Of a stretch of 14,947 nt of DNA, positions 1 through 14,947 are shown one piece after another. The DNA is from Leucogyrophana mollusca (taxonomy: Eukaryota; Basidiomycota; Agaricomycetes; Boletales). Location of the stretch: the NCBI GenBank assembly GCA_021014945.1, contig MU266777.1, forward strand, positions 1 to 14,947, in the 5' to 3' direction. Positions within the stretch are counted from its first letter, which is position 1, and each line of letters starts with the position of its first letter. The notes beneath the pieces are model-generated. The model saw nothing but the letters and a program-made list of their open reading frames with translations, ran no database searches and was not told the DNA's origin. A program made the translations under genes and the position numbers.

Positions 1-1
1 G

Positions 2-229
2 TTCCTGCAGACGGTAGCTCACGCTACCAGCTGTCCGCAGTGCACGGCATACATCGAGCACCTCAGCGAGGTCGATAGTACGTCGGGCAGCTTTGCGGCC
101 GCCATCGAGGCGCGCGACAGCTTCTACGCTGATCGCGCAAATCGTGGCATGCTGCCCGGATGCGATGTCGCCCTCTTGGAGGACGACGTGCGACGTTTTC
201 GTCGCACTATGGAGGAGGCGATCTGTTGA
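2..229 (+). pseudogene. 3' fragment of an unrecognised ORF, cut by an LTR insertion
   Basis: One frame is open from base 2 to a TGA at 227-229, giving about 75 residues with a Cys pair and aromatic motif (SCPQCTAYIEHL) followed by an Ala/Arg/Asp-rich, probably helical tail ending RRFRRTMEEAI. It is GC-rich, unlike the AT-rich sequence that follows. The last codon and the stop lie inside the LTR that begins at 224, so the native C-terminus is missing and the stop is supplied by the inserted element. The 5' end is off the window. The SC-x2-CTAY-x2-HL pattern recurs in the gypsy polyprotein near 13340-13370, so this may be the tail of a related retroelement Gag-region protein rather than a host gene. 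No function can be given. Confidence 0.55.
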
Positions 230-473
230 ACATGTAGCATATGATTTCTCATTTATCACATGTTTGTATATGACTTATCATAGCCGGTACGGACTACTGG
301 AACATTCTAGTATCTTAGATATACTTAGATAGATTCCTTTTATGCTTTCCATACGTAGTAGAAACAACTCATACATATATGCTCACCTGGTCTGTGCACC
401 ATCTTCATTCACTATATATAATGTGTAGTTATAGTCGAATATACTCTAAGATTTATACCTCATATCTTCGACA
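224..473 (+). repeat. Copia-type long terminal repeat (5' or solo LTR)
   Basis: This 250-bp AT-rich block starts TGTTGA and ends TCGACA, imperfect terminal inverted repeats with the usual TG...CA ends. It is followed at once by a copia-type primer-binding site, which fixes the right edge at 473. It has a TATA-like run at 411-420 and a short direct repeat, CTTAGATA, at about 314-331. Five bases before it are CGATC (219-223), a candidate target duplication. No second LTR copy was found in the window, so the left edge rests on the terminal repeat alone. Confidence 0.72.
411..421 (+). promoter_or_regulatory. TATA-like element in the LTR
   Basis: An ACTATATATAA run lies about 60 bases before the LTR end. 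This is a plausible core promoter for transcription into the primer-binding site and the ORF at 515. It is supported by position and composition only. Confidence 0.4.
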
Positions 474-490
474 GGTTATGAGCCCCGCGC
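474..490 (+). other. Primer-binding site for a half-tRNA initiator Met primer
   Basis: GGTTATGAGCCC (474-485) is the exact complement of the fungal initiator tRNA-Met anticodon-loop sequence GGGCUCAUAACC. The following CGCGC continues the match to the tRNA 5' half with small differences. Drosophila copia and relatives prime from this internal tRNA fragment rather than the 3' CCA end. Starting directly after the LTR's terminal CA, it marks the upstream LTR as belonging to a copia-type (Ty1/copia, Pseudoviridae-like) element. Confidence 0.8.
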
Positions 491-514
491 TCTAACTACT
501 TCATATTAATCATC

Positions 515-1653
515 GTGGATCAACTAGCAACCGCAGCTTCACTCTACTTCTTCACTCATCGCACTCATCGAGAACAGCGACTACAACGCTCAGTTAACCC
601 AGACACAGTCGAACAAATTCTGTCTGACTCTGACTCGACAGAACACTGGTTAAACATTCGGTATTTTGTCAATCATCGTACTCTACCCCGTCCAGATCCA
701 CCACCCTATCTTGCTGATTCTTCTACGCCTACGCTTCAAGTTCTTGGTGCATTTCCAGAAGACATTATTGACTGGGAAACTCTTCCAGAGTACTCAGATA
801 CTCGTCATCTCACGCATTTTGAATCTACTGCACCCTATCTGGTTTTTAATCAGCAAACAGTTCTTTTTGACAGGGATTCCAATCCAGGATACTACGACCG
901 CTTACATCTATTTTAGGCCAACTCCACATAGCCAATCAAGTTCGCCAACGCCTTATAGAATACGAAGTCTTACCTCAGCAGTATTACGACTTTAGCAGGT
1001 TCTTATTTGGCGAGTATCCAACAGAGCACGATCATCGCGCTTCTTACCTTCAAGTTCGCGAGTGGCGAAGAGACCGCATAGTCCGTCTTGCCACTACTGT
1101 CAACCAGTTCAATTACGACACCTTCGAACCCTATCAGTCCGGGGATCCACGGGATATTGATAGCGTCTTCCCAGACCAACCCTCTAACACCACTCCTTGG
1201 CCCGTCTTTTATATCTTCATTCGTCTCATTGCAACTTATGGTGACATCGGAGCTCGCAGTGATCCTTACGGATTTAACGAAGACTCCGACGTCGAAACTG
1301 GTTATCTAAACGACAATTGGACTTTCGTCCCTGTCGATAGAGGTGTTCCTCATATCATCGAGGAATTTGTACCAGGAAACCTCACTTACGACTCCGACTT
1401 TGCAGACGCAGAAGACAACATCTCAACGCACTCCTCCGATCAAGAACTAGAGCTTATCCAAGAGTTCGCCATCTGGTTCAACAATCAGTCAGAAGACCGT
1501 CAACGAGAACTTGTCTTTGCAGAAGTTCTCAAAGAAATTCGCTCCCGCCGCGTCGTCACTCCTATTCCTGAAGTGGAGGTAGACGAAAACGGTAATCTAA
1601 ACGACGGTTATCCTTCTGATTGGGACGGAAATTACTCAACCTCAGATCTTTAA
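515..1653 (+). pseudogene. Acidic ORF of unknown family directly behind the copia primer site; one frameshift
   Basis: Two abutting open frames make one protein of about 379 residues. The first runs from 515 to a TAG at 914-916. The second is open from 871 to the TAA at 1651-1653 and has no ATG. One extra T in the run at 911-914 would join them smoothly (...YYDRLHLF into LGQLHIANQVRQ...). The first codon is GTG at 515 with no in-frame ATG upstream before a TGA at 479, so an ATG may have mutated or the start is unusual. The product is rich in Asp, Glu, Tyr and Pro. It has a basic helical stretch (THREQRLQRS), an FxIRLIATYGDIGARSDPYGF segment in the middle and a strongly acidic C-terminal third. 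No zinc knuckle, protease, RT or membrane span is visible. It begins 24 bases after the primer site, where a retroelement would normally encode Gag. It could be a divergent Gag, an extra ORF, or cargo of a non-autonomous element. Confidence 0.6.
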
Positions 1654-2022
1654 TAGATCGTCCCACGTTTTGAGTAATCAACGTGTGGATTTGGTTGTTG
1701 TGCTGTCACACGTTGATACGGGTATCCTATCAACGCGGGATTCAAGGAGCACCTCTGTTTGGATCGAGGCAGCCGCTTGCGGAAGGGGCCTCTCGCCAGA
1801 GTAATTCATAGATGTTCGGATTGATCCACGACTCTTCGGAGCGGGGGGGTCTCGTTGTCTCTAAAACAAAATTTCTTCCACTTCTTCCACGGCAGATTGG
1901 ATCGAAAGCGATTGGCGAAGCAACTATAGGAACACCGTCGTTGCACACGATCATATTCCCGTTACCTATTCATCTCTGACTTCTTCGCTTCCTTATCATC
2001 TCGAACTCCTTCTCTATCTATA
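1654..2022 (+). other. Non-coding spacer and leader before copia gag
   Basis: No convincing gene is present in this stretch. It holds the inverted repeats at 1677-1735, a run of seven or more G at about 1843-1849, and a C/T-rich stretch ending CTCTATCTATA just before the gag ATG, typical of a fungal transcription-start leader. It may contain the 3' end of the element with the 515-1653 ORF and the 5' leader of the copia gag, but no LTR copy or second primer site could be recognised. Confidence 0.4.
1677..1735. repeat. Three-armed inverted repeat
   Basis: ATCAACGTGTG (1677-1687) is perfectly complementary to CACACGTTGAT (1707-1717). The ATCAACG core occurs again at 1729-1735 and can pair with the same 1711-1717 arm. 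GATAC/GTATC forms a further small palindrome between the last two arms. The middle arm can thus form either of two mutually exclusive hairpins. It lies just after the stop codon of the 515-1653 ORF. Confidence 0.6.
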
Positions 2023-2733
2023 ATGGCATCTTCCACGGATCTTTCCAAAGCCCAAAATCAGCTCATCGCATTTGATGGCACAAATTACGAAACCTGGGCA
2101 TCTGCCATGAGGGGTTACCTCCGAATGTCAGGTTGCTACGTAGCTATCACTGATCATGGGAACACTTCAAGCGAACAAAAGGAACAAGCCTTAGGCGCAC
2201 TGGAACTTTATATGAAACCCACTCTCCGATTCAATGTTGGAAGTTCCTCTAGCCCAAAGGATGTTTGGGACAAACTCAAGTCCGAATACGGAGCGAAGGG
2301 CGCCCTAGGCGCATTTGTATACTATAAAGAACTCACGGAAATGAGATTCGACGCAAACAAGAGCATGCGGAACCAGATCTCCGAAATGGAGAATAGAAGA
2401 TCTCTAGCCAAAGACGGCGGGATCGAAATCTCCGATCAGCTCATGGCGTTGAACATTTGCAATGCCTTACCTCAAAGCTACTCGTCAGCAATATCCTCGC
2501 TGATGGCTACGCTTACGGTATCCTCAATTAAGCCGTCTGACGTAATTCCTAAAATCATCGAAGAGGAATCACGCAGGTCAGCTAATAAAGTCCAGATCAA
2601 TAGGGTGTCCAATACTAACCCTATAAAGAAAAAGTGCGAAAAGTGTGGGAGAACGAACCACACCACAGAGCTGCCATGGGCTGGCTTTGAAACCTGCCCA
2701 TTTAGAAATGCCCCAGATTTGTGCAATTACTGA
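2023..2733 (+). pseudogene. Truncated copia-type Gag (UBN2-like) with a damaged zinc knuckle
   Basis: The ATG at 2023 follows a pyrimidine-rich leader, and the frame is open for 236 residues. Residues about 15-35 contain LIAFDGTNYETWASAMRGYL, the start pattern of copia Gag (UBN2/DUF4219 type). Residues about 60-190 contain the helical Gag body, with DVWDKLKSEYG and LTEMRFDANKS typical of the family. Near residue 207 a knuckle begins, CEKCGRTNHTTE, but the fourth ligand is lost (LPW follows). Shifting to the next frame at about 2673 gives ...CHGLALKPAH, so loss of two bases there would explain both the missing Cys and the early TGA at 2731. No copia protease, integrase, RT or RNase H follows. 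The copy is cut off near the 5.6-kb transposon. In an intact element this Gag would form the cytoplasmic virus-like particle that packages element RNA. Confidence 0.78.
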
Positions 2734-2774
2734 ATCTGACAGTTGCCATATTTTCGATCAAGTGGTAATGTGGT

Positions 2775-2782
2775 ATATGCCA
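2775..2782. repeat. Left target-site duplication (8 bp)
   Basis: ATATGCCA lies directly before the left terminal repeat. The identical 8-mer directly follows the right terminal repeat at 8390-8397. Confidence 0.9.
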
Positions 2783-2832
2783 CAAGGGGCAACCAAGATT
2801 AGAATCCCAGACACTCACTCCCCGAGTTGCAT
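2783..2832 (+). repeat. Left terminal inverted repeat
   Basis: The outer 14 bases match the right end perfectly, followed by about 35 bases of partial similarity. The sequence starts with CA, as in hAT and P elements. Confidence 0.85.
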
Positions 2833-3114
2833 TTGTTTGTGCGCTTCCGGGGTCCCATTTCTGACTTTTTGGCTATCTTTTTGTCACACACATATTTTGA
2901 TATAAGCTTGCGGAGAGAAGTGGTCGTACATATACAATAAGGAACTAATCACGAGCGAGGAGAATACTTTAGAAGTGCGATCTGCTACAGTTACCTTGGG
3001 CAACTTTCCGAACAGTTCACAAAAGTGATTTACCAAATCCGGTGAAGTGGCTGTCAGCAACTGCTAGTAGGATCGACTCCGAACATTTTCGACGTCGTGT
3101 TCTTGTGTCAACCC
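2833..3114 (+). promoter_or_regulatory. 5' region of the transposase gene
   Basis: No ORF of note lies between the left terminal repeat and the chosen ATG. A TATA-like GATATAAGC at about 2897-2905, some 210 bases before the ATG, is a possible core promoter. Transposase binding sites would be expected in this stretch, but no clear repeated motif was seen. Confidence 0.3.
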
Positions 3115-4284
3115 ATGTCGCAAGGATGGCCGTCTAGCCCTGCAGTCACATACTCAGCCCGCAGGTCCAGAATCCTCAGTGGTTACTGGAATTCCGACCA
3201 CTCATATGATTATGAGCCTGAGTCAAGTCCTGGCCCAGAGAACAGACTCGGAGAACACCCACTGGCTAGTGACAGCATTGCACGTTACAATCCCGCTCCA
3301 GTGGCTGCAGAGGTTATTGGTCTCATAGGTGACAGTGGTCCAGGTCAGTTGTCAGCTGACAGCCACTCATCACACTGGGCCGACTCGGAGGCCTGCTACT
3401 ACTATGAGCCTCAGCTCGGCATGGGCGTGGACATGGATGAGAGGGAGGATTCTCCTGTGGATCGAAACAGCCCAGTGGTCAGCACCGAAATAGAGATTCA
3501 CGTGAATGCGAAGGGGAAAAGGGAATGCTGGTGCAAGAGTTGTGAGCAGTGGGTTGGTCTGGGGCAAAGTAAGACATCCCTGTATCAGTTCGACAAGCAC
3601 CGTGGCTCTACTTCTTGTAACGCAAAACGAGTCAGGCTTGACAGAGAAAGGATTCGAAAAAAAGAAGCTCATACCCGCGAGCAGCTCTTCGGATTGACCT
3701 CCAGAGCATCCCCCCATTACCAAATCACTGCATCAGGATCTAGCACACCGTCCAGCTTGCGATCGACACCAGCGGGCTCCATGGCATCCCTGCGACAAGC
3801 CTCCATAACCTTCTCGTCAGCTTCACGTTCGCCATCACGAGAAGGTTCCAGCTCACCTGAACCACACTCTCCCTTCCTCCCTCCACAACCTGACTCGGAT
3901 ATCAACAACAACGGCCCCCAGTCGTATAGTCCACCTCCTTCATGCAAGGGGGTACCACTCGACTGGCCCGTTGGAACTATCTTCGACACATACCCATGGA
4001 CTCAGCATGAATATGGTGCGAGGGGGTTGGGATATCATTTCTGCGCTGTGGAAAAAGATGGTAGATCATTTTGGATCCGATCAAACAAATGCACTGGGAC
4101 TCCTACCAGGGGAGGGGACGCTTGTATTGAATGTCACAGTGCGCAGACCACGAAAACACGTTGTGAGATCGAGGAACGTGCAAGAGCAGCGTTGCCGCGC
4201 ACACCCCACAAATTTCTCACGCACCAGCAACTGCGGCAGTTGCTTAAGCTCACAGCTGAGCAGTTGAACGAATACAAGCTACAG

Positions 4285-4342
4285 GTAAATATTTCAAGCC
4301 TGAGCTGTTGAACTTGCTAACTTATCCGCTGAATTTTGATAG
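4285..4342 (+). other. Transposase intron 1
   Basis: This intron has a GTAAAT donor, a CTAAC branch-like motif near 4317 and a TAG acceptor; it is 58 bases, phase 0. Splicing skips the stop at 4309-4311 and joins EYKLQ to TLNLTRKL, which extends a helical segment. Confidence 0.8.
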
Positions 4343-5306
4343 ACTCTGAACTTGACCCGAAAGCTCAGTACCATGATTAGGCGCTTGGACGATTCCAAGC
4401 GATTCTTGATGACTGTGGCTGATTGCGACTGCCTGCGGCTAGGGAAGCTCGTTGGCGTTGCTTTGCGCCAAGGTGCGGGCTGGAGGGCGATTACCCTGAT
4501 GGTACAGAAGTCTATCGAGTCGATTTGTCAGACACGCCAATATACTGCGAAGGATTTCGACATTGCACGGCTGATCCATACCATTGGCGGCCGCAAACTA
4601 GGCCACGCAATGAATCATGCACTTGGACTTCCTTCAGTCACTGCGACACTACGGAAATTTGACTGCCGGCACCTCCTTGCCAGCTTAGGGCCCGTGAAGG
4701 CTGCGGAGATTGACGAGAACATTTCCACTTTTTTCGGAAAGCTCCCCTTTCGTCCAAAATGCGGCCATAACCTTCAGATGGACGAAGTTGCCATTAACGA
4801 GGAGGCGTACTATGATAAATGCCGCAACTCCATTGGCGGGCTTTGTCGGGATCATTCGGGCTGTATTGATCTGAAGGCCACTGATTACGACTCCATTCTG
4901 CATGCATCAGAAAGCGTTCATGGTGACAACCCACCTTGTCACTATGGAAGGGAAGCCACAGTCACTGTGATTGCAGCATTTTCGCAAACCAAATACAGCC
5001 CCCTTCCCGTCCTGGTATCGCCGACATGCAAATCGGAAACAGCTGATTCCGCAGAGGTCCTGATACAGCAACTGCTGGATTGTTGGCACCAGCACCCGGA
5101 CGGCAAGGCACGGTTTGGGCCAGTCTGGTGTTTTTCCACAGACGGTGATGCAACTCGACGGCTCGCATGCTACAACCTTTTCATGGGTCAAAAACTCGGT
5201 TTTTCAAGCAGTTTGTACCCAGATTTATCACGACTTCCAGGATCGAACCTGCAAACAGGAGTTTACGAGATTACCATGGACTTCGATCCAAAACACCTGG
5301 TTAAAA

Positions 5307-5358
5307 GTGCGTGTTTTATTCTCCGTGCATTGCTGTAACACTCACATGTCTGCCTAAG
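5307..5358 (+). other. Transposase intron 2
   Basis: This intron has a GTGCGT donor and an AAG acceptor; it is 52 bases, phase 1. Splicing gives KHLVKRHATLLRS, restoring a basic motif that follows the second Asp block, and leads into the ORF that continues at 5472. Confidence 0.8.
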
Positions 5359-7296
5359 GACATGCGACGTTATTACGCTCACCCCAAGGGATCGTCATTT
5401 CGGACATTGTCATCACGCGCGAGATTCTCGCTCAGCATTTAATTTGCCTTAACCATCTCTCAGCGAAGGAGGTGGATGATCTCCTTTCCCAGGGCGACGC
5501 GCAGAACGTTCCCCGTGCCGTCAAACTCCTCCGCAACATTGCAATGCTACAAGCACTGGGCCCTGCAACTTCACAATATAACCCGACCAAACGAAAGCTA
5601 TATGGTGCTTTGAAAGTGCTTGGTGTCTTATGTGAATCCCTCGTCGAGCCTTTCTTCAACATCAAAATGTCTCTAAAGGAACAGCTCAAGTCGCTTTCAA
5701 CCTACGCTCACCTCTCCTTCACGCTCTATCGACAACATACAACATCATTCATGTCAAATCAACTCTACGGCGACACTCAAGCTATGATCAAGAACATTTT
5801 CTTCACCGTCGCAAAACAGAGGTGCTTCGATGATACACAGCCTGTCTACATTATCCAGGATGACTCAGATTGTCTGGAAGGCTTGTTTGGCGACACACGG
5901 ACTCAGGACCACAATCCAAACATGGGTGTTGTCCGACTTTGCGAGAGGCTCTCTTCGAGTGCTGATCGCGCTGATATCTTTGAGCGTCACCCTGATTGGG
6001 ATCGAGGACATCGCAGGTTGCAGGGAGAAGGGAAGCTCGGCGCAGATCACACCAACCCGGCGTCGTGGAAAGGCTGTGTAATTGCTGGCGAAGTATCGCT
6101 GCAGACGGAGTGGCACCGTGGAGCGCTCTCGGCAAACGCTGTGCTGGACACACTGGATATCAACATCGATTTCAACGCCATCTTTACCAGTGATGCAGTA
6201 GACTTGATGAAACCTATTGGCGACGGAAAATTCCCAGGTGTTGCTCAAGACACTGATCGATCAGTCGCAGATCCGGCCCCCACTGTCGGCCACCTTACAG
6301 AGGGTACCATTAGCACAGTCGCTGGTGTTGCTGGTCCACCCGATAACGATAGCGTGGAAACAAACATAGAAATCGAAGGTAATCCTGCAGACGAGAACGA
6401 AGAAGAAGCCGATTCAGACGAGCTTGGATCAGATGGACTTGTCTTTGAAAGCGAAACAGATGGACAGACTCAGCGTACAGATGACGATCCTGAGGATACA
6501 CCAGCAATCACACTCGAAGACTTACTGCCAGAGCCAGGCGACTCTGAGGAAACGATGGGAAAACGCGATTGGGTCCTCTTCGAAGGGAAAATGATCCACA
6601 AAGCATCCGTCATACGATGCCTCTTTTCTTCGGATAAGAAGAGGAAATCGAGAGAGCGGCTGTTGAGGGTGCGAGGCTACACGCGGGACTTTTCCCCAAA
6701 GGTGAACCTCAATAACAACGACCTCACTGGCGAGCAGTTTCTTGTCGGAGATCTAGCTGCCATTCTTATCCGCTGTGATAAGACCATCGCTGTCGGTATC
6801 CTTCAAGTTACGTCGATCGAACAGAACAGGCAACGTGTCTCGGGTATTGAAGAGGAGTCACTCAGACTCTCAACGACCGAAACATTCGTCTCTGGACAAG
6901 TCTTGCAATTATGCCCATCAGCCACACACGACACTTCTGGAAATCCGCAGCCCAACCACCTTCAGCACGACTGGCTCTGGACAGGATCGTATTGCAAGTT
7001 CGCTCCATTGAAGGCTTCCAAGTCTTTGGCATCCACTGGCAAAGTCTCGCGAAAGGCACTCGTACTCCGTGTCCCTGGTCACGCAGTACACCCATTGAAT
7101 CTTCGAATTGAATCAACTAAGTTCTTGCCCTCGGAGCATCAGTCACCACGCCGACTCGAAACATGGGCGATCTCTGGTACCAACCTCGCAGCCGCTGTTG
7201 ACGCCCTCTGGGAACTCACGGAACTCAACGAAGCGTCTGCATCAGTGCCAAAGTGTGGATCTTCAACTGTTGGCTTTCCCTACGTCAATAATGACG

Positions 7297-7345
7297 GTAA
7301 GCTTGGCTTGTAGCATGGCAAATCAAAACGACTTACAGCTCACAG
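7297..7345 (+). other. Transposase intron 3
   Basis: This intron has a GTAAGC donor and a CACAG acceptor at 7345; it is 49 bases. A second acceptor, TTACAG, at 7338 would lead into a different frame that stays open to 8057 without another intron. The 7345 acceptor is preferred because its frame yields CGKSIKHKAL and HMGGHILRA. Confidence 0.6.
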
Positions 7346-7530
7346 GTATCCCTACCTTTGTCGCGGAGAATGCTACTCGAGCGCTACTATCAAACACGAT
7401 CAGTCCGGACGGAAACATTACCTGGAACGCATGTGGCAAAAGCATCAAGCACAAAGCGCTCTGAAGTCACATGGGCGGTCACATACTTCGTGCACAGTTG
7501 GGTTGTTCGGAGGAGGGCTTGAAGATGCCT

Positions 7531-7580
7531 GTGCGTTTGCCCTTACAATTTCTGGATGTCGGTCATTAACGCCTAACCAG
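7531..7580 (+). other. Transposase intron 4
   Basis: This intron has a GTGCGT donor, a TAAC branch-like motif and a CCAG acceptor; it is 50 bases, phase 0. It joins SEEGLKMP to VSPIDPCGFCG. It is needed only if the HMGGHIL frame is the true one upstream. Confidence 0.6.
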
Positions 7581-8091
7581 GTTTCTCCGATCGACCCATG
7601 CGGCTTTTGTGGCCAGTCGGGCCACCCGGTGAAGCTTGTCAGAACTGGACGAAAAAATACCTCTCAGCCCATTTCATCATGCCCGCAATCCATTTCGTTT
7701 AGCCTTGGAGCGGCCGCAAAAAGCACGAAGGCCTCACCATCAACCAACACACCTATTCAATGTGGTCTTTGTCCTGCTACCTCGGGTGATCGCGCAACAG
7801 TCTGGAAATATAACCTGCCTTTTCACCTCAGTACGGTCCATGCTTCCCGTGATGACTCCCTGCCGTTGCCTGCTAATGTATCGAAGGAGCTCGTGATCTC
7901 CCGCTTCGAACAGCGCGAACTAAAAATCCCCGAGCAACTGATTGTAGTGAGCGGTGAGATTTCGGGGCCTGCCGTGGGTTTCAACGGTTCCACGTCTGGC
8001 GCGAGCACTGGGAGCACGGGAAAGAGAAAGGGGGGGGGAGAGACTTCAAGGTGGTAGTAAATCAAAACGCTCGAAGAACACTGTCACATAG

Positions 8092-8340
8092 TTTACTCGC
8101 AGTACTACTAGTTGACTCTAATAGGACCTCGTATTAATTCCCTACTGTAGCATATTACTATCTAGTCCCTTCTAATCAATGTTTCTCGACTTTGCATATC
8201 CTTTGCACGGCTTGACCTGTAGACACAATCTTACTCAGACGACGTTCAACGTTGGTACTTGCGAGACTTAGTGAAAATTTTGCGTCCAAGTATTGTCCAA
8301 TATTGTATAGTATTCAACCCGATTTCGGGGTCCTACAGGC
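8092..8340 (+). other. 3' non-coding part of the transposon
   Basis: This is AT-rich sequence between the alternative transposase stop at 8089-8091 and the right terminal repeat. No ORF, clear polyadenylation hexamer or repeat was recognised. Confidence 0.4.
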
Positions 8341-8389
8341 TCAACTTTTCCGGGTCAGTGTCAGTAACTTTTATTTTGGTTGCCCCTTG
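8341..8389 (-). repeat. Right terminal inverted repeat
   Basis: The reverse complement from 8389 starts CAAGGGGCAACCAA, identical to the left end for 14 bases, then partial similarity including GACACTGAC. Confidence 0.85.
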
Positions 8390-8397
8390 ATATGCCA
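8390..8397. repeat. Right target-site duplication (8 bp)
   Basis: ATATGCCA is identical to 2775-2782 and abuts the right terminal repeat. Confidence 0.9.
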
Positions 8398-8547
8398 TCT
8401 CTATTAGGTCAAAAACTACAACCTGGGCTGCTATGGCAGGATCAATGGATGTGACTCGGAGACGTCCCACATACGCAAGAAACGTGCCGGAGAGATTGGA
8501 CAAAGAGATGGGGCGGAAGATTAGCCTTAGATGAGCGACGAAGTGAC

Positions 8548-8596
8548 CTGTAGATAACATCGGGCAATTGTAGCATAGAATGATAATACTACTCAC
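8548..8596 (-). other. Intron in the Plavaka relic (3' side)
   Basis: On the minus strand it starts GTGAGT and ends CTACAG; it is 49 bases, phase 1. Its removal gives ESGLEGHFVAHLRLIFRPI, a conserved Plavaka segment. Confidence 0.8.
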
Positions 8597-10395
8597 CTTC
8601 AAGGCCGCTTTCTGGCCAGTTGAGCTGAGAGTCGGCATTGACAATGACACTGTCATATTTGCCCGAAGGTTAGAGTTGGGACGGCGGGAACACATTGATA
8701 GACTGGGGTTTTTCAATGATATCTGGGTGGTGGAAATTATGGAGCTGCAGGCGAAGTGTGCACCACACCTGGATTCGCTTGAACGCAAGTGGGCATCCGG
8801 CCTGTGCTCTATGTCTGCCTCCGACATCGTGATGGGCGCTCCCATGCTTTGCCCACTCAAGGAAGTCACCAATGGTGGGACGGAAATCTTGAAGGCCGAA
8901 ATCTTCGGCAGCGCTGTCCACTGTCATACATGTGAGGGGGGGATTGTACCTCAAATGAAAGCCGGTGATGGGAGTGGCGAACGTTCTGAAGGGACGGGGG
9001 GCGTCGGGGTATATGCTGAGGATCAAGTCACAAGCGTGGGCGAAGTAGTCGACAACTTCTCGACGAGGCTGAGCACCATCTCCAGCATTGTCATTGTCGT
9101 TGACCTCGCTTCTGTCTTCCAGCTGTGCCTCCTGTGTCTCTTTGTGCAGGCTTGTCGCCAGATTGAAGTGAATGCATTTGTCCAGATGGTCAAGATAACG
9201 GCATATCTGTGGGTTGTAGTCCTTCTTATTTCTGGAGCATGCTGGAACTTTGATGATGTCAATGTGTGCGTGTTCGGTAACATCCGCCGTCCACTGCATG
9301 AGAGCCCCATGTGAGCAGATAGATGGGACCACTCCCTGAAGGAGTTCGAGTTTCGGAATATGCCAGTTGTTGATAACCCCCTTCTTGCCTCAGCGTCCTT
9401 TGGCGTCAATGATGGCCTGCTTATGAGTGTGGAGCTCCTTGAATGCAGAATCAACTTGTTGAATGTCATTCTCAGTGAATCGAAGGGCTTGTGCGAGGTA
9501 ACAGAAATCCATGAGGGGCACAGATTGCGATGACAAAGTTTGTGGGAGCGGTGCCAGCGACAACACCAATGAGGTAACGCTGGGAATTGCGGTGATCCCA
9601 TCCCATTGCTTTCTTCAGCTTTGCTATCCCCTCTCTAAATGCCCAGTACCCTGTGCACATTTGTAACAGGGAGCACCGATAGTCAAGCTCTGCAGCACCA
9701 ACTACAGCAATGCACCAGTTATGCCCATGGTCCCAAAAAAACTTGTGAAGGTGGTGCAATAGTTCAGGGAGAAGAAATAGAGAGGGATTTCCTGCACCCC
9801 AATCCCTCCAGAAGGGCAAGTCCACTGCGTTCAGTTGCAGATCTTTGCACACCTTGAAAAACGCTTCTAGTTGGGAGGGGGAAACAGCAGCCATGGTGGT
9901 GGCGATCTTCTCGAGTGTCGACTTGCCTGTACGGAGCGTGTGACAAAATGGGTCCCCGAAATTCTGGTATATCGCCGTAGTGACCGGTGACGTTTGACCA
10001 GCGACAGCGGATATGGTGAGTTGCTACGGAGTATCTGCGATGTATATCACAAGGGGGGTGAAGCAGTAACATAACTGACCAGCAGGATCACTAAGCATTA
10101 TGCCAATGCTTGCTGCAATCTTGAGCGGTTGGAGGACGAGGTCAAGACTCTGATGGAGTAGGCGGTCTCCAAGGATACCTCGCATGCGTGAGTTTGGATG
10201 AGTGAATTTTGCCACAGGGAGGAGAGCCAGGAGTAAGTACGCATTGTCAGATGACTTGTTCCAAATGGTGACGTCGAGATTCGTGAGGCTGAGAAGAAGC
10301 GGGTGAGTGCTGTGGTCGCCAGTCATGTTGGTGATCTGGGTCTTATCTGAAGACAGGATAATTCCCAAAAGCGAGGCTCCATCAGGAATCGACTG

Positions 10396-10446
10396 CTGAT
10401 GGCGATGGCGTTAGCTGTGGTTTGATTAATGACATTCTCAACTAAC
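10396..10446 (-). other. Intron in the Plavaka relic (5' side)
   Basis: On the minus strand it starts GTTAGT and ends ATCAG; it is 51 bases, phase 0. It joins NRAWELQ to QSIPDGASLLGIIL. An acceptor three bases later (CAG) is also possible. Confidence 0.7.
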
Positions 10447-10670
10447 CTGTAGTTCCCAAGCACGATTGCTGGTCATCCAAGAACTATATACATGCGACAA
10501 ACAAGCTTCACATTCGTATACCTTGCGAGGGACGAATTCAATGTGTTCTGAAAAGGGAGGGTGGGAAAGGATTGCCTGAAGGCACTCGACGGGGTCACAA
10601 TAGTATATGTGTAGGGGGCGCGTTGTTGGGTATTCAGTGGTTACGTGTAAGGCACAGCCACATCAGTGGC

Positions 10671-10680
10671 CTATAAATAT
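10671..10680 (+). promoter_or_regulatory. TATA-like box upstream of the gypsy element
   Basis: CTATAAATAT lies about 180 bases before the gag ATG at 10851, next to where Plavaka coding similarity ends. It is probably what remains of the gypsy 5' LTR promoter. TTACA and CATACA further on could be LTR ends, but no LTR copy is available to define it. Confidence 0.4.
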
Positions 10681-10768
10681 TTGATTAAGTAATTAGTTAC
10701 AGGTAGCTTTTACACTACATACATACACCATTGGAATAGATGCTGGGTCACGTTCCTTGGTGTGAAGT

Positions 10769-10810
10769 AAGTCAAGAGTCAATTGACTTTTCTGTAAGAG
10801 CCCCTTACAG
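10769..10810 (+). repeat. Two adjacent perfect hairpins in the gypsy leader
   Basis: AAGTCAA (10769-10775) pairs with TTGACTT (10783-10789) around a 7-base loop, overlapping the 12-base palindrome AGTCAATTGACT (10777-10788). Right after it, CTGTAAG (10792-10798) pairs with CTTACAG (10804-10810) around AGCCC. They lie 40-80 bases before the gag ATG, where retroelement packaging or dimerisation signals are often found. Confidence 0.5.
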
Positions 10811-10850
10811 TTTTTTGAAAACCCACAAAAAGTGCGCTAAACCAATCAAT

Positions 10851-11720
10851 ATGTCCAATACACAGACATTGAGGCCTTTGGCAAAAAGAGGCCCAGTGCC
10901 TCTGGGTGACCAAGTGTCATCCGGAAAAGATCCCACCCCATCAGGTGGGCAAAAAGGCAAGAAAAAGGAGCAACCAGCTTCTACCGTCGAAACCCCGGAG
11001 CTGATCAGTGCTGATCCCGAGATCGACGCAGATAACTTGGAGATGAACACAGGGCCTACTGACCCTACAGCTAAAAATAGCGAAAGCGCCCAGGAAGGGG
11101 TGCCCAAGCAAAGCTCGAAGGCCGCGGGAAAGCAGCCAGAAGTGGTGCAAGAGAGCACCGTGGGGGAAGTAGAGAGTGCACAGTCAACTGTGCGACAACC
11201 ATCAGAATCAATGGAAAACCAACTCCGGCGTACGCTGGAGCAAGGGCTCGAAAATGAGCTAAGAAGAAGTCAAGTGGAAGCACTAGCTCCTGCAGAAGTA
11301 CTGGCAAATGCCATTGATAACTTCCTACAGGATGTAGGGGACCAGTGGAGGTCGAGAGACAGAGGGGACGCACTTGTGTCCAGCCATGGGGTAAACCCCT
11401 ACCGGCAGAACACCGATGCAATAGAGCGCATGTGCACTGCAGTTCACGAGGTAACATGCCAGGAGGCGGAAGACCCTCGCGAAGCAGCCAGAAGACTGGC
11501 TAGACAGCGGCGCGCTGTAGAAAATAATGCACCCTACCTTAGCGGTAGGGACAGTGACATAATGTGTCACATACAAAACATAGAGCGACGAATGTTGCCA
11601 CGGGAGTTAGACGTCCACGGCGCACGCCGTGATGGAGTGCGCGTAGAGTCACGACAGCGAGAGCATCGGGGCTATGAGCGCCAATACGAAGATAACCATG
11701 GACTACCACGAGCGGGATAA
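10851..11720 (+). pseudogene. N-terminal part of the gypsy Gag polyprotein
   Basis: The ATG at 10851 starts MSNTQTLRPLAKRG; an in-frame ATG at 10740 is less likely because it would translate the hairpin leader. About the first 110 residues are low-complexity Lys/Gln/Ser/Pro-rich. A Glu/Arg-rich helical segment follows (MENQLRRTLEQGLENELRRS, then LANAIDNFLQDVGDQWRSR), probably a coiled coil. Residues about 180-280 are strongly Arg-rich. The frame ends at TAA 11718-11720, but the natural path leaves it near 11700, where one surplus G shifts reading to the frame used by the Gag core (DNH to DYHERDNHHD). I see no enzyme domain. It is interpreted as the N-terminal extension common in basidiomycete gypsy Gags. 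Confidence 0.6.
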
Positions 11721-13056
11721 CCACCACGACCGTGGTGACTGACGGGGCTGGTATGACAAAGGCCAATATGGCCAAGGACGTGGAGGAGGCAGTCCGCCCC
11801 CTCCAGACAATCCCGGAGATGACTCCAACGAGTACCATAGCGACCGACTACCGTTGGAGGATGACCGTCACAACGGCGACAACAGGAGAGGCGGCCCAGG
11901 CTGCTACAACAGATGAGAGAGTTACGCCAGGTCTGAAGTAATGGAACCCCCTTACAGAGAAGGGAGCTACGCTCCCACAAGGCACGAACGCGAGGGACCT
12001 CGCATATACAAGAACGACTCGCTAGAGCGAATACGCTCCATGATAATGGATAGGATCAGAACCGATCCAAGGAACCTCCCCGAGATAAAGGGGCTTAAGG
12101 CAACAAAGTTACCTGACCCATATGAGGGTGTGGACAACATCGCCGCATTCGAAGGGTGGGTCCAATCTCTATTGAGTTGGTTCCGATTGGCCAGAATGAC
12201 TGGCCACAAAGCCAACGCAAGCTGGCTAGACGTGATGCAACTGTGCCTCAAAGGCCCAGCCAAGGAATGGTTCAGACAGGAGGTCCTGTGCCTGGATCGA
12301 GCGATTCGGAAGTGGACCTTCCGAGGGGCGGTTCTTGCCATGCATAGGCACTTCGTACACGAAGCAATGGCCCAACAGGCCACTGACCAATTTCATGTGT
12401 TGCGTTATGACCACAAGACGGGCGCAACCGCGTTCTTTAATGGTCTGTGGGAGCGTGCCCCCCGCATGGTCCAACGACCAGACAAATATACCTTCAGACG
12501 AAGGTTCTTGGATGGACTTCCCCATGCGTTGGTGGAGGACGTCCTCAAAACTTGGGGGATATCCACCAAATATTTGAGGATCGAAGATATTCTTCGAGAG
12601 GTCAAGGCAATGGAGAACGTACATAAGTACATTAGCCATCACCGTAAACAAGCGACGGACTTGTTGCACTCTAGTCGACTGCCTGGCCCACACAATGCAG
12701 CGAGCTCTAGCTCGAAGAGGGTTGAAGATAGCAGGGGTCCCCCGCGAGCGTTCAAGGTAGTCCGGGCATCCGGATTGAGAACATACGGCGATAGGCCGTA
12801 TAGGACGGATTACCGTCCCAAACAGAACCAGGAGCGAGGGCCCCCGAGGGCAAGCAAGCCCCACAGTCACAACCACTGCCTGGCAAAGCCTGACAGGAAG
12901 GTGCCAGCGGCGCCAATGGACATGAGCAAGATGACTTGCTACAGATGCAAGGGAGTCGGGCACATAGTGTCCGAAAGGGACAAGTGTCCCAAAGCCAAGG
13001 GCGAACCACAGCAGCTATTCGCCACCCAAGAAGTCGACGAAGACGTCGAGATGTGA
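11701..13056 (+). pseudogene. Gypsy Gag core with zinc knuckle
   Basis: The frame contains TGA at 11740-11742 and 11914-11916, then is open from an ATG at 11941 for 371 residues. Residues about 65-195 (from 11941) form a retrotransposon Gag core: AAFEGWVQSLLSWF, LKGPAKEWF, and FNGLWERAPRMVQ through RRRFLDGLP. The region after it is basic and Pro-rich. A knuckle, C-x2-C-x4-H-x7-C (CYRCKGVGHIVSERDKC), begins at 12937; the last spacing is longer than the usual x4. The TGA at 13054-13056 interrupts a frame that continues in register (DVEM, stop, DETEKSPIEE), so Gag and the next segment were probably one polyprotein. The intact protein would assemble the particle that packages element RNA. Confidence 0.85.
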
Positions 13057-13830
13057 GACGAGACTGAGAAGAGCCCCATTGAGGAGCCCATGGAAGAGCC
13101 CATGGAAGGGGGCGACCGAGAGAACTCGGAAGAGGAGGACAAACGGGAACCTTATGGCTCCCAATACTTGTCAGAAGACGAGTACCTGCTAGAGCAGTAT
13201 GAAGACGACATGCGAGACGATGACAGTGACGTCGTATACTTACGCGCAGCGTGCGTGGAGGAATGCGACTTGCCCAGGCAAGAAGACGATGACGCACCAT
13301 GGAAGTGGGTTTACGAGGACAACCACGGCGTGGTGCACAATCACAGTTGTGAAATTTGCACAGCATATAAGGATCATCTGGCTGTCGCCAGGGAAACAGG
13401 AGATGACCTATCGGTCGAAAACGCGATTGGCATTGGCCAACAGCTACTTCATGACAAATACATCCAAGGATGGGATGCGTACGAGCGTACGCTAGGCGCT
13501 ATGGAGGCAAATGGAGGGCCTCCAATGTGGGAGCACAGCCAAGAGGCACCTGATGCGCATCAACATGCCGCTTATGCGGGTAGGCTATGTAGTCTGGAGC
13601 CGCCAGACACATCACTACGGATGCAGACTGAGGAGGATGTAGGGATGATAACATCCCTAATGGAGGGAGACCACCTCCTAATGGAAGCATTCACTTCCAA
13701 GCTCGATGAGCTCAAGGCAATGGTGCGAGTCCAGCGACTAGCAGTAGATACCATGGTGTCGCCAGGTGAAGCCACACGGGCAATGACCGATGAACCGCCT
13801 CCCAGTAGGGAGTTTAGGTACACTCTGTGA
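13057..13830 (+). pseudogene. Acidic Gag-Pro linker region with a Cys motif
   Basis: This segment is in the same frame as the Gag core and open to TGA 13828-13830. The first 80 residues are very acidic, with a repeated EEPM (IEEPMEEPMEGG). A Cys-rich motif follows (HNHSCEICTAYKDHL, near 13335-13370), then a helical stretch and a leucine/methionine-rich coil (LMEAFTSKLDELKAMVRVQRL). It is not a recognised catalytic domain. The position between knuckle and protease suggests a spacer in the polyprotein. The SCxxCTAYxxHL motif resembles the ORF fragment at 2-223. Confidence 0.6.
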
Positions 13831-13978
13831 AAACCTGAAGTGGTCAGGGTGAGACCACCTCGCGACAAGGCGTTGCAACAATGCCTAGTGGTGTTCGTTG
13901 AAATGAACGGCTTCAGGGCATACACCCTGTTTGATTCGGGGAGCACGACGGACTCGGTGAGTCCACAGACCACGCGGG
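13831..13978 (+). pseudogene. Truncated retroelement aspartic protease
   Basis: In frame after the TGA at 13828, the sequence reads ALQQCLVVFVEMNGFRAYTLFDSGSTTDSVSP. This contains the LFDSGST active-site motif of a retropepsin-like protease (catalytic Asp codon 13933-13935). It stops about 15 residues later (PQTTR), where RT sequence begins in another frame. The flap and second half of the fold are gone. The intact enzyme would mature the Gag-Pol polyprotein. Confidence 0.75.
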
Positions 13979-14304
13979 ACGTACCTGAGCCATGTTATGC
14001 AACAAGGCAACTGTAACGCTCCCGCTACATTTCAACGTCTAATCACGGCAATTTTCCGAGATTTCATCGGAATATTCCTACACGTCTACTTAGATGATAT
14101 GTTCATGTTCAGTGACACGGTAGATGACCACGAAAATCATCTATCTCTCGTATTCGAGAGACTAAGGAAGGTACAGATGTACCTTGAACAGGACAAATGC
14201 AACCTGTACTCAGGCAAGATGGATTGTCTTGGTCATCTGATCGACAATAAGGGACTCCATGCTGATGGAGACAAGATGGCTCGCATACGCGAGTGGAGGA
14301 CCCC
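13976..14304 (+). pseudogene. Reverse transcriptase palm fragment (motifs B and C)
   Basis: In the second frame, similarity to gypsy RT begins at about 13976 (GTYLSHVMQQGNCNAPATFQ, motif B). It continues to HVYLDDMFMFSDT with the catalytic YLDD at 14087-14098, then LYSGKMDCLGHLID and MARIREWRTP. Fingers and motif A, including the first catalytic Asp, are missing because the fragment is fused directly to the protease start. A missing C in the run 14301-14304 then throws the frame. The intact enzyme copies element RNA into cDNA. Confidence 0.9.
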
Positions 14305-14947
14305 TCTGTCCAAGACGACATCCAGAGGTTCCTGGGGCTAATCGAGTATATCTCAAGATTCATGCCGGACCTATCGTCCTATACAGGACCACTGGCCAGG
14401 ATGACCTGGAACGGACACCCGTTCCATTGGAGACCGTTGCACGATAAGTGCTTCGAGGCCATCAAGGTGATGGCCTGTCGATTCCCGATCCTATGCCCGA
14501 TCGATCCAAGGCTCGACGAGCCTATCTGGGTAATCAGTAATGCATCCATCACTGGGCTGGGAGCAATGTACGGGCAAGGGCCCGATTGGAAATCATGCAG
14601 GCCGGCTGGCTTCATGTCCAAAAAGCTGACAGACGCTCAGCATAACTATCCTGTTCACGAATGTGAAGTGCTTGCAATGCTAGAAGCACTGCTGAAATGG
14701 GAGGACAAGCTCCTTGGCTACAAGGTACACCTGGTCACCAACCATGAGTCCTTGGAGTTCTTTAAGACGCAACCGTGTCTATCAAGCCGACAAGTCCGTT
14801 GGATGGATTACCTCAGTCAATTCAACTATGAGGTCCATTACGTGCAGGGGCACGAAAATATTGTAGCGGACTGCTTGTCACGCTATTATGAGAGCAATAC
14901 GTGGGAGGACTATTGTCCCCCTGATCATCTAGCACAAGTCGACGTGA
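14305..14947 (+). pseudogene. RT thumb/connection and RNase H, partial at the window end
   Basis: The first frame is open from 14305 to the window end with no stop, and starts SVQDDIQRFLGLIEYISRFMP, continuing the RT after the frameshift. GPLARMTWNGHPFHW and DKCFEAIKVMACRFPIL follow, then RNase H: WVISNASITGLGAMYGQGP, RPAGFMSKKL, HECEVLAMLEALLKWEDKLLG, HLVTNHESLEFFKTQ and ADCLSRYYES. Two positions normally Asp in this fold read Asn (AAT at 14539-14541, AAC at 14740-14742), so RNase H should be inactive. The Glu in HECEVLAM remains. Integrase would follow beyond the window. Confidence 0.9.

Follow-up and report, generated by a model that had tools for sequence, protein, structure and literature searches.

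Introduction

P elements are transposons best known in animals, and their mobilisation involves a cleavage staggered by 17 nt. Cantu and others described them in rust fungi. Previously unknown in Dikarya, they were found there in Puccinia and Melampsora, the intact Melampsora elements being flanked by 8-bp duplications, and Repbase holds them as P-1_MLP, P-2_MLP, P-N1_MLP, P-N2_MLP and P-1_PSt (available part of PMC3164196, in print since 2011). The superfamily carries the catalytic signature D..D..[C/D](2)H..E (available part of PMC8230255).

Here we examine a stretch of 14,947 nucleotides, called the window below, from the agaricomycete Leucogyrophana mollusca (Boletales; assembly GCA_021014945.1, contig MU266777.1, positions 1 to 14,947). 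Positions 2783-8389 hold an element of 5,607 bp, which we read, with a probability of about 0.93, as a complete DNA transposon that moves by cut and paste and belongs, with a lineage widespread in Agaricomycetes, to the P superfamily. A first-pass annotation of the window, made from its letters alone, had recognised a transposon with terminal inverted repeats (TIRs) and left its transposase without a superfamily. This last point is overturned by fold comparison, profile–profile comparison and the signature string, all of which lead to P, a group already present (as P/THAP9) among the comparisons that the annotation proposed.

A transposase of the P superfamily

A search with residues 400-1004 of the window protein retrieved 50 proteins, and a second one with the family alignment A1 retrieved 34, of which 27 were new, giving 77 relatives in total; each search scored no more than the 8,000 or so candidates with the most words in common. 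The nearest relative is P0001, a Suillus americanus protein with 67% identity, which points weakly to a boletoid host. Forty of the first 50 proteins carry an organism name, with a range from Suillus to Exidia and Ceratobasidium, and all 40 belong to genera that we take to be Agaricomycetes. The first-pass annotation had placed such relatives among agaricomycete hypothetical proteins, and they are indeed named hypothetical or uncharacterised, P0009 being called C2H2-type domain-containing in one source. Precomputed Pfam domains are absent from all 50. Since no curated transposase match was obtained in Pfam (residues 1-1005 of the window protein; 38 relatives) or NCBIfam (three relatives), the assignment called for comparisons of fold and profile.

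The profiles were compared with HHalign, using the 70 of 77 family proteins and 116 of 120 P homologues retained after filtering on 60% coverage and on a length limit. The family matches P over 375 columns with a probability of 98 and an E-value of 3e-13. Cut to its reference columns, the P profile scores 104.4, more than four times the maximum of 59 column-shuffled versions (22.7), and the reversed version reaches 19.4. Reciprocal tests with hidden Markov models (HMMs), in small databases made up of real sequences and shuffled ones, gave E 4.8e-6 for the best family member under the P HMM versus 0.21 for the best shuffled decoy, and E 6.2e-11 versus 0.02 for the best P match under the family HMM. 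At the level of structure, VIA-align superposed 382 residues of a core model of P0001 on the P transposase, a match 11 Z units above Transib. HHalign begins its match at residue 62 of P0001 and residue 153 of the Drosophila P transposase (DmTNP), and VIA-align at 61 and 152.

HHalign further pairs D537 (4781-4783, plus strand, as for all protein features below), D657 (5141-5143), D705 and H708 (D705-x2-H708, 5285-5296) and E885 (5877-5879) with DmTNP D230, D303, D339, H342 and E531, so aligned that the P signature, with its [C/D](2)H motif (D339-x2-H342 in DmTNP), is present in full and in order. Among relatives with a residue at each column, D537 is D in 64 of 64 (six of 70 gapped), D657 is D in 68 of 68 (two gaps) and E885 is E in 67 of 67 (three gaps); D705 is D in 67 of 68 and H708 is H in 66 of 68 (two gaps), P0001 itself having Y for the histidine. 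Because this defining catalytic signature is present, we place the element in the P superfamily. The RNase H-like DDE fold and the triad D537, D657 and E885, proposed at the outset, stand at the very residues then given and align to the DmTNP triad.

Pfam contains models for the KDZ (Kyakuja-Dileera-Zisupton) and CxC groups. None of them appears among the matches of 38 relatives at E 0.1, in keeping with the initial remark that KDZ signatures are absent, and the P signature is found instead. A KDZ identity would draw on the Zisupton branch, which has 8-bp duplications and occurs in Agaricomycetes, whereas 7-bp duplications and a lack of TIRs are reported for two Kyakuja families (available part of PMC12730594). 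We regard membership of KDZ as extremely improbable.

Several observations weigh against the placement in P. Neither the window core nor any of 43 relatives scanned attains the curated cut-off of a P domain in Pfam, the best match being PF21787 at E 0.017 (15.8 bits, cut-off 24.6). No P-domain match was obtained at E 0.1 in the 38 relatives from A1, or at E 10 with the family consensus; PF21787 or PF21789 appears below the cut-off in four of five relatives, those five being picked for high reciprocal-HMM scores. We treat the curated cut-off as an annotation threshold and not as a defining feature of the superfamily. Searches of PDB sequences with phmmer and with profiles did not find the P transposase, the HHalign controls consisted of shuffled and reversed profiles only, and the core model was built for P0001 rather than for the window copy. 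No THAP match was obtained in window residues 1-1005 (E 1) or in 38 relatives (E 0.1; only 13 of these show the N-terminal finger pattern and many are partial). Finally, DmTNP contacts GTP through D528, K385, K400, V401, S409, F443, D444 and N447 (available part of PMC7776569), and in a loose alignment of the insertion domain only two of these eight have conserved counterparts, namely V401 and D528, at whose columns 69 of 70 relatives have V and 65 of 66 have D, respectively.

Such observations could also mean that the family is a separate, unnamed DDE superfamily sharing with P just the fold and the 8-bp duplications, as the first-pass annotation suggested. The curated P families of Pfam are all missed, the organism-named matches listed in both searches are exclusively agaricomycete and include no P transposase, and the protein is much larger than that of P, with no THAP detected and a divergent insertion domain. 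Against this reading stand the complete and ordered P signature, the profile score at over four times its shuffled maximum and the structural margin over Transib. We hold a separate superfamily to be very unlikely and retain P.

Element ends and insertion site

The TIRs are identical over 14 of 14 bases, CAAGGGGCAACCAA at 2783-2796 (plus strand) and its reverse complement at 8376-8389 (minus strand). Beyond these bases the inverted similarity is weaker and extends imperfectly to 2818 (36 nt at 78%, 2783-2818 with 8354-8389). The end sequence of the transposon reads CAAGGGGC, and the element is exactly flanked by the target-site duplication ATATGCCA, at 2775-2782 and 8390-8397 (plus strand). 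A scan for exact 8-bp repeats beside termini that agree at 12 or more of 14 bases gave one pair in the window, and no such pair arose when 2500-8699 was dinucleotide-shuffled 200 times.

The joined flanks with one copy of ATATGCCA match an empty site at C538 (9576-9720, minus strand) in 144 of 145 bases, ungapped. The match is short (window 2671-2782 and 8390-8430), with no shared match beyond it in the stretch compared. Because an unoccupied version of the insertion site exists, the duplication is real. The ends, the shuffled scan and this empty site all bear out the complete TIR transposon with perfect 8-bp duplication that was first described; an empty-site allele had then been named as what might expose the duplication as chance, and the opposite was found.

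The 8-bp duplications and the CA..TG ends would also fit a hAT transposon, and a survey of RNase H enzymes groups P and hAT in one clade (available part of PMC3985635). We give hAT membership a next to negligible chance.

Within the P element of the window, the motif GGGGTCC, a candidate transposase-binding site, lies at 2849-2855, 66 bp inside the left end, and at 8327-8333, 56 bp inside the right end, both times on the plus strand, and the C156 copy described below is alike in both distances. In the C79 element, GGAGTCC stands 68 bp in from the left end and GGGGTCC 50 bp in from the right end, three solo left ends have GGGGTCC at 58-61 bp, and the exact motif is absent near the ends of the C437 element. 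In Drosophila P, the transposase-binding sites lie 9 and 21 bp from the two terminal repeats (available part of PMC7776569), an asymmetry which the candidate motifs resemble in a way that is suggestive only.

Architecture of the transposase

The transposase gene (3115-8057, plus strand) starts at ATG 3115 and was modelled by splice-site reading, without transcripts. Its five exons (3115-4284, 4343-5306, 5359-7296, 7346-7530 and 7581-8057) form a single frame across GT..AG introns at 4285-4342, 5307-5358, 7297-7345 and 7531-7580, and hold 1,577 codons ahead of the final stop, including an in-frame TGA at codon 1397 (7462-7464, plus strand). The first-pass annotation was right that one spliced gene fills the element, and left this TGA unmentioned. 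As read, the window protein has 1,396 residues and lacks the C-terminal PCGFCG and WKY fingers; because of the stop, the window copy is probably defective. Compared with P0002, the window copy also lacks the first cysteine of the C-terminal C2H2 finger, and its transposase core is free of stops and frame breaks.

From the N-terminus, the protein first carries a C2HC finger (C-x2-C-x(n)-H-x(n)-C, 3532-3618) at the place of THAP in animal P transposases, followed by a stretch with a second cysteine cluster (C-x10-C-x2-C in the alignment consensus, 4057-4137). A helical region ahead of the core (4343-4522), corresponding to model helices before residue 60 of P0001, is a putative dimerisation segment, and a helix-turn-helix segment (4541-4675) aligns to DmTNP from about residue 153. 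Within the RNase H fold, the P0001 model and the VIA alignment delimit a helical insertion domain (5297-5876), split by the intron at 5307-5358, which lies where P transposase has its GTP-binding domain. A beta-rich domain (6732-7295) precedes the C-terminal Cys/His fingers (PCGFCG; C-x2-C..WKY..H..H; 7596-7841), which lie downstream of the stop in the window copy. Fingers at both ends of the protein, as first described, are thus encoded, the latter past the stop.

The N-terminal C-x2-C..H..C pattern is found in the window protein and in 24 of the 77 relatives, and occurs together with a C-terminal PCGxCG in 15 of the 77 (P0014, P0020 and P0029, for example); most others miss one or both motifs, many sequences being partial. 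A zf-BED match was obtained in one of 38 relatives scanned with Pfam.

Divergence from animal P transposases

The THAP domain is said to be absent from fungi (available part of PMC7776569). Because none was detected here, we do not file the window family in the clade of animal P elements and THAP9. The window transposon lies outside this THAP-bearing animal clade, and its architecture and its host are new for the P superfamily.

All eight GTP-contacting residues of DmTNP are the commonest at their positions in the P set. In the mushroom family, N447 is opposite a gap of the loose alignment, and the columns of K385, K400, S409, F443 and D444 either vary or retain a different residue. Lysine is the commonest residue at the K385 column, in only 13 of 70 relatives; at K400, 26 of 116 P proteins have the asparagine that is common in the mushroom family. 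As the alignment is weak in the insertion domain, a loss of GTP binding in the mushroom family is put forward only as a hypothesis.

A broader scenario is possible if rather doubtful. The mushroom lineage would be a deep P branch that either never had THAP or exchanged it for the C2HC finger. Its insertion domain would have retained the fold but not the GTP pocket, leading to transposition without GTP, the cofactor by which P transposase stands out; the beta-rich C-terminal domain may read chromatin.

Other copies and genomic surroundings

Four insertions in two subfamilies, with four different perfect 8-bp duplications, were identified in the genome. Besides the window element, they are a 678-bp copy on C156 (43957-44634; duplication GAATGTAC; ends at 72-78% over the matched terminal parts), a 6,210-bp element on C79 (26261-32470; ends CAAGAGGAGGGC; duplication CAGTAGCC) whose transposase is 39% identical to P0001 and about 33% to the window protein, and a 1,658-bp internally deleted relative of the latter on C437 (pieces 86-89% identical; duplication TCCTCCAA). 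No empty site was found with the joined flanks of the C156 and C79 copies.

Copy counts from terminal-pattern searches are lower bounds. The pattern occurs free of mismatches at five places, two of them being the ends of the window element. With two mismatches it gives 78 and 90 matches in the genome versus 74 and 76 for the reversed control, and because it is not enriched it was not used for counting. For left ends on C392, C388, C459 and C356, the scanned stretches gave no right end that both matches and comes with a duplication. Three left ends (L004, L006 and L008, at about 1471-1600) have near-identical flanking 30 bases, and for this reason were probably duplicated together within a larger repeat. 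A further candidate at C51:84002-84518 (L051, 503-1019) was rejected, its flanks being inverted repeats of each other without direct duplication; similar terminal sequences between inverted repeats recall a fold-back structure. Around paralogous genes on C397 (L049) and C210 (L052) no TIRs with duplication were recognised, looser settings yielding scattered weak pairs. Each aligned translation of these paralogues contains a stop, which may reflect decay or an intron edge.

The window itself looks like a nest of transposons. A Copia-type gag open reading frame (ORF; Retrotran_gag_2, E 7e-24) at 1930-2733 ends 49 bp before the insertion and, since the C538 empty site matches its end and the following sequence, the element inserted into an old copia fragment or next to one. 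To the right, minus-strand ORFs at 8670-10023 match DUF6830 (E 1.8e-34) and a Plavaka transposase (E 1.7e-17), and are perhaps one Plavaka element. An ORF at 11917-14341 with sub-threshold gag and zinc-knuckle matches, and an RVT_1 match farther on (E 6e-18), probably represent a retroelement.

Possible mechanism of transposition

The N-terminal finger and the helix-turn-helix would bind the subterminal and terminal sites, and a dimer would bring the two element ends together. The D537/D657/E885 site would cut DNA with divalent metal ions and link it to the target strands at points 8 bp apart. Repair of the gaps would leave the 8-bp duplication. Short copies with the same ends could be mobilised in trans.

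Implications and comparison with known systems

Among the papers listed in a literature search that covered few subscription papers, no report of P elements in Agaricomycetes came up. The 2025 survey by Kojima of TET-bearing fungal transposons names KDZ, hAT, Plavaka and others, and P is not named in its abstract and examined parts (PMC12730594). The supposition that the ends of such proteins were undescribed holds within the literature searched, while rust P elements with 8-bp duplications have been known since 2011 (available part of PMC3164196).

Agaricomycete hypothetical proteins with no curated Pfam transposase match here now receive a superfamily name, ends and a duplication length, which would improve the repeat annotation of mushroom genomes. 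P elements are extended to a second class of basidiomycetes, with a different architecture. It becomes testable whether GTP and THAP are at the core of P transposition or are additions of the animal branch.

Zisupton/KDZ elements share with the window family agaricomycete hosts and, for Zisupton, 8-bp duplications; the window family differs by its P signature and the lack of a KDZ Pfam match. The rust P elements, compared by their published description, have in common the superfamily, a basidiomycete host, 8-bp duplications and the coexistence of autonomous and short copies; no rust-named protein is among the relatives listed in either search. Drosophila P is about half as long (2.9 versus 5.6 kb), with a transposase of 751 residues versus 1,577 codons and perfect terminal repeats of 31 versus 14 bp. 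Unlike it, the window family has a C2HC finger, no detected THAP and a long finger-bearing C-terminal extension, and six of the eight GTP contacts are not evident. With the Drosophila P transposase (6P5A), and with vertebrate THAP9, it shares the modelled fold, the catalytic D-D-E and the D-x2-H after beta 5. Drosophila P is also like the window family in its helical insertion domain, in the helix-turn-helix ahead of the core, in its 8-bp duplications and internally deleted derivatives, and in subterminal motifs, here candidates, that lie unequally far from the two ends.
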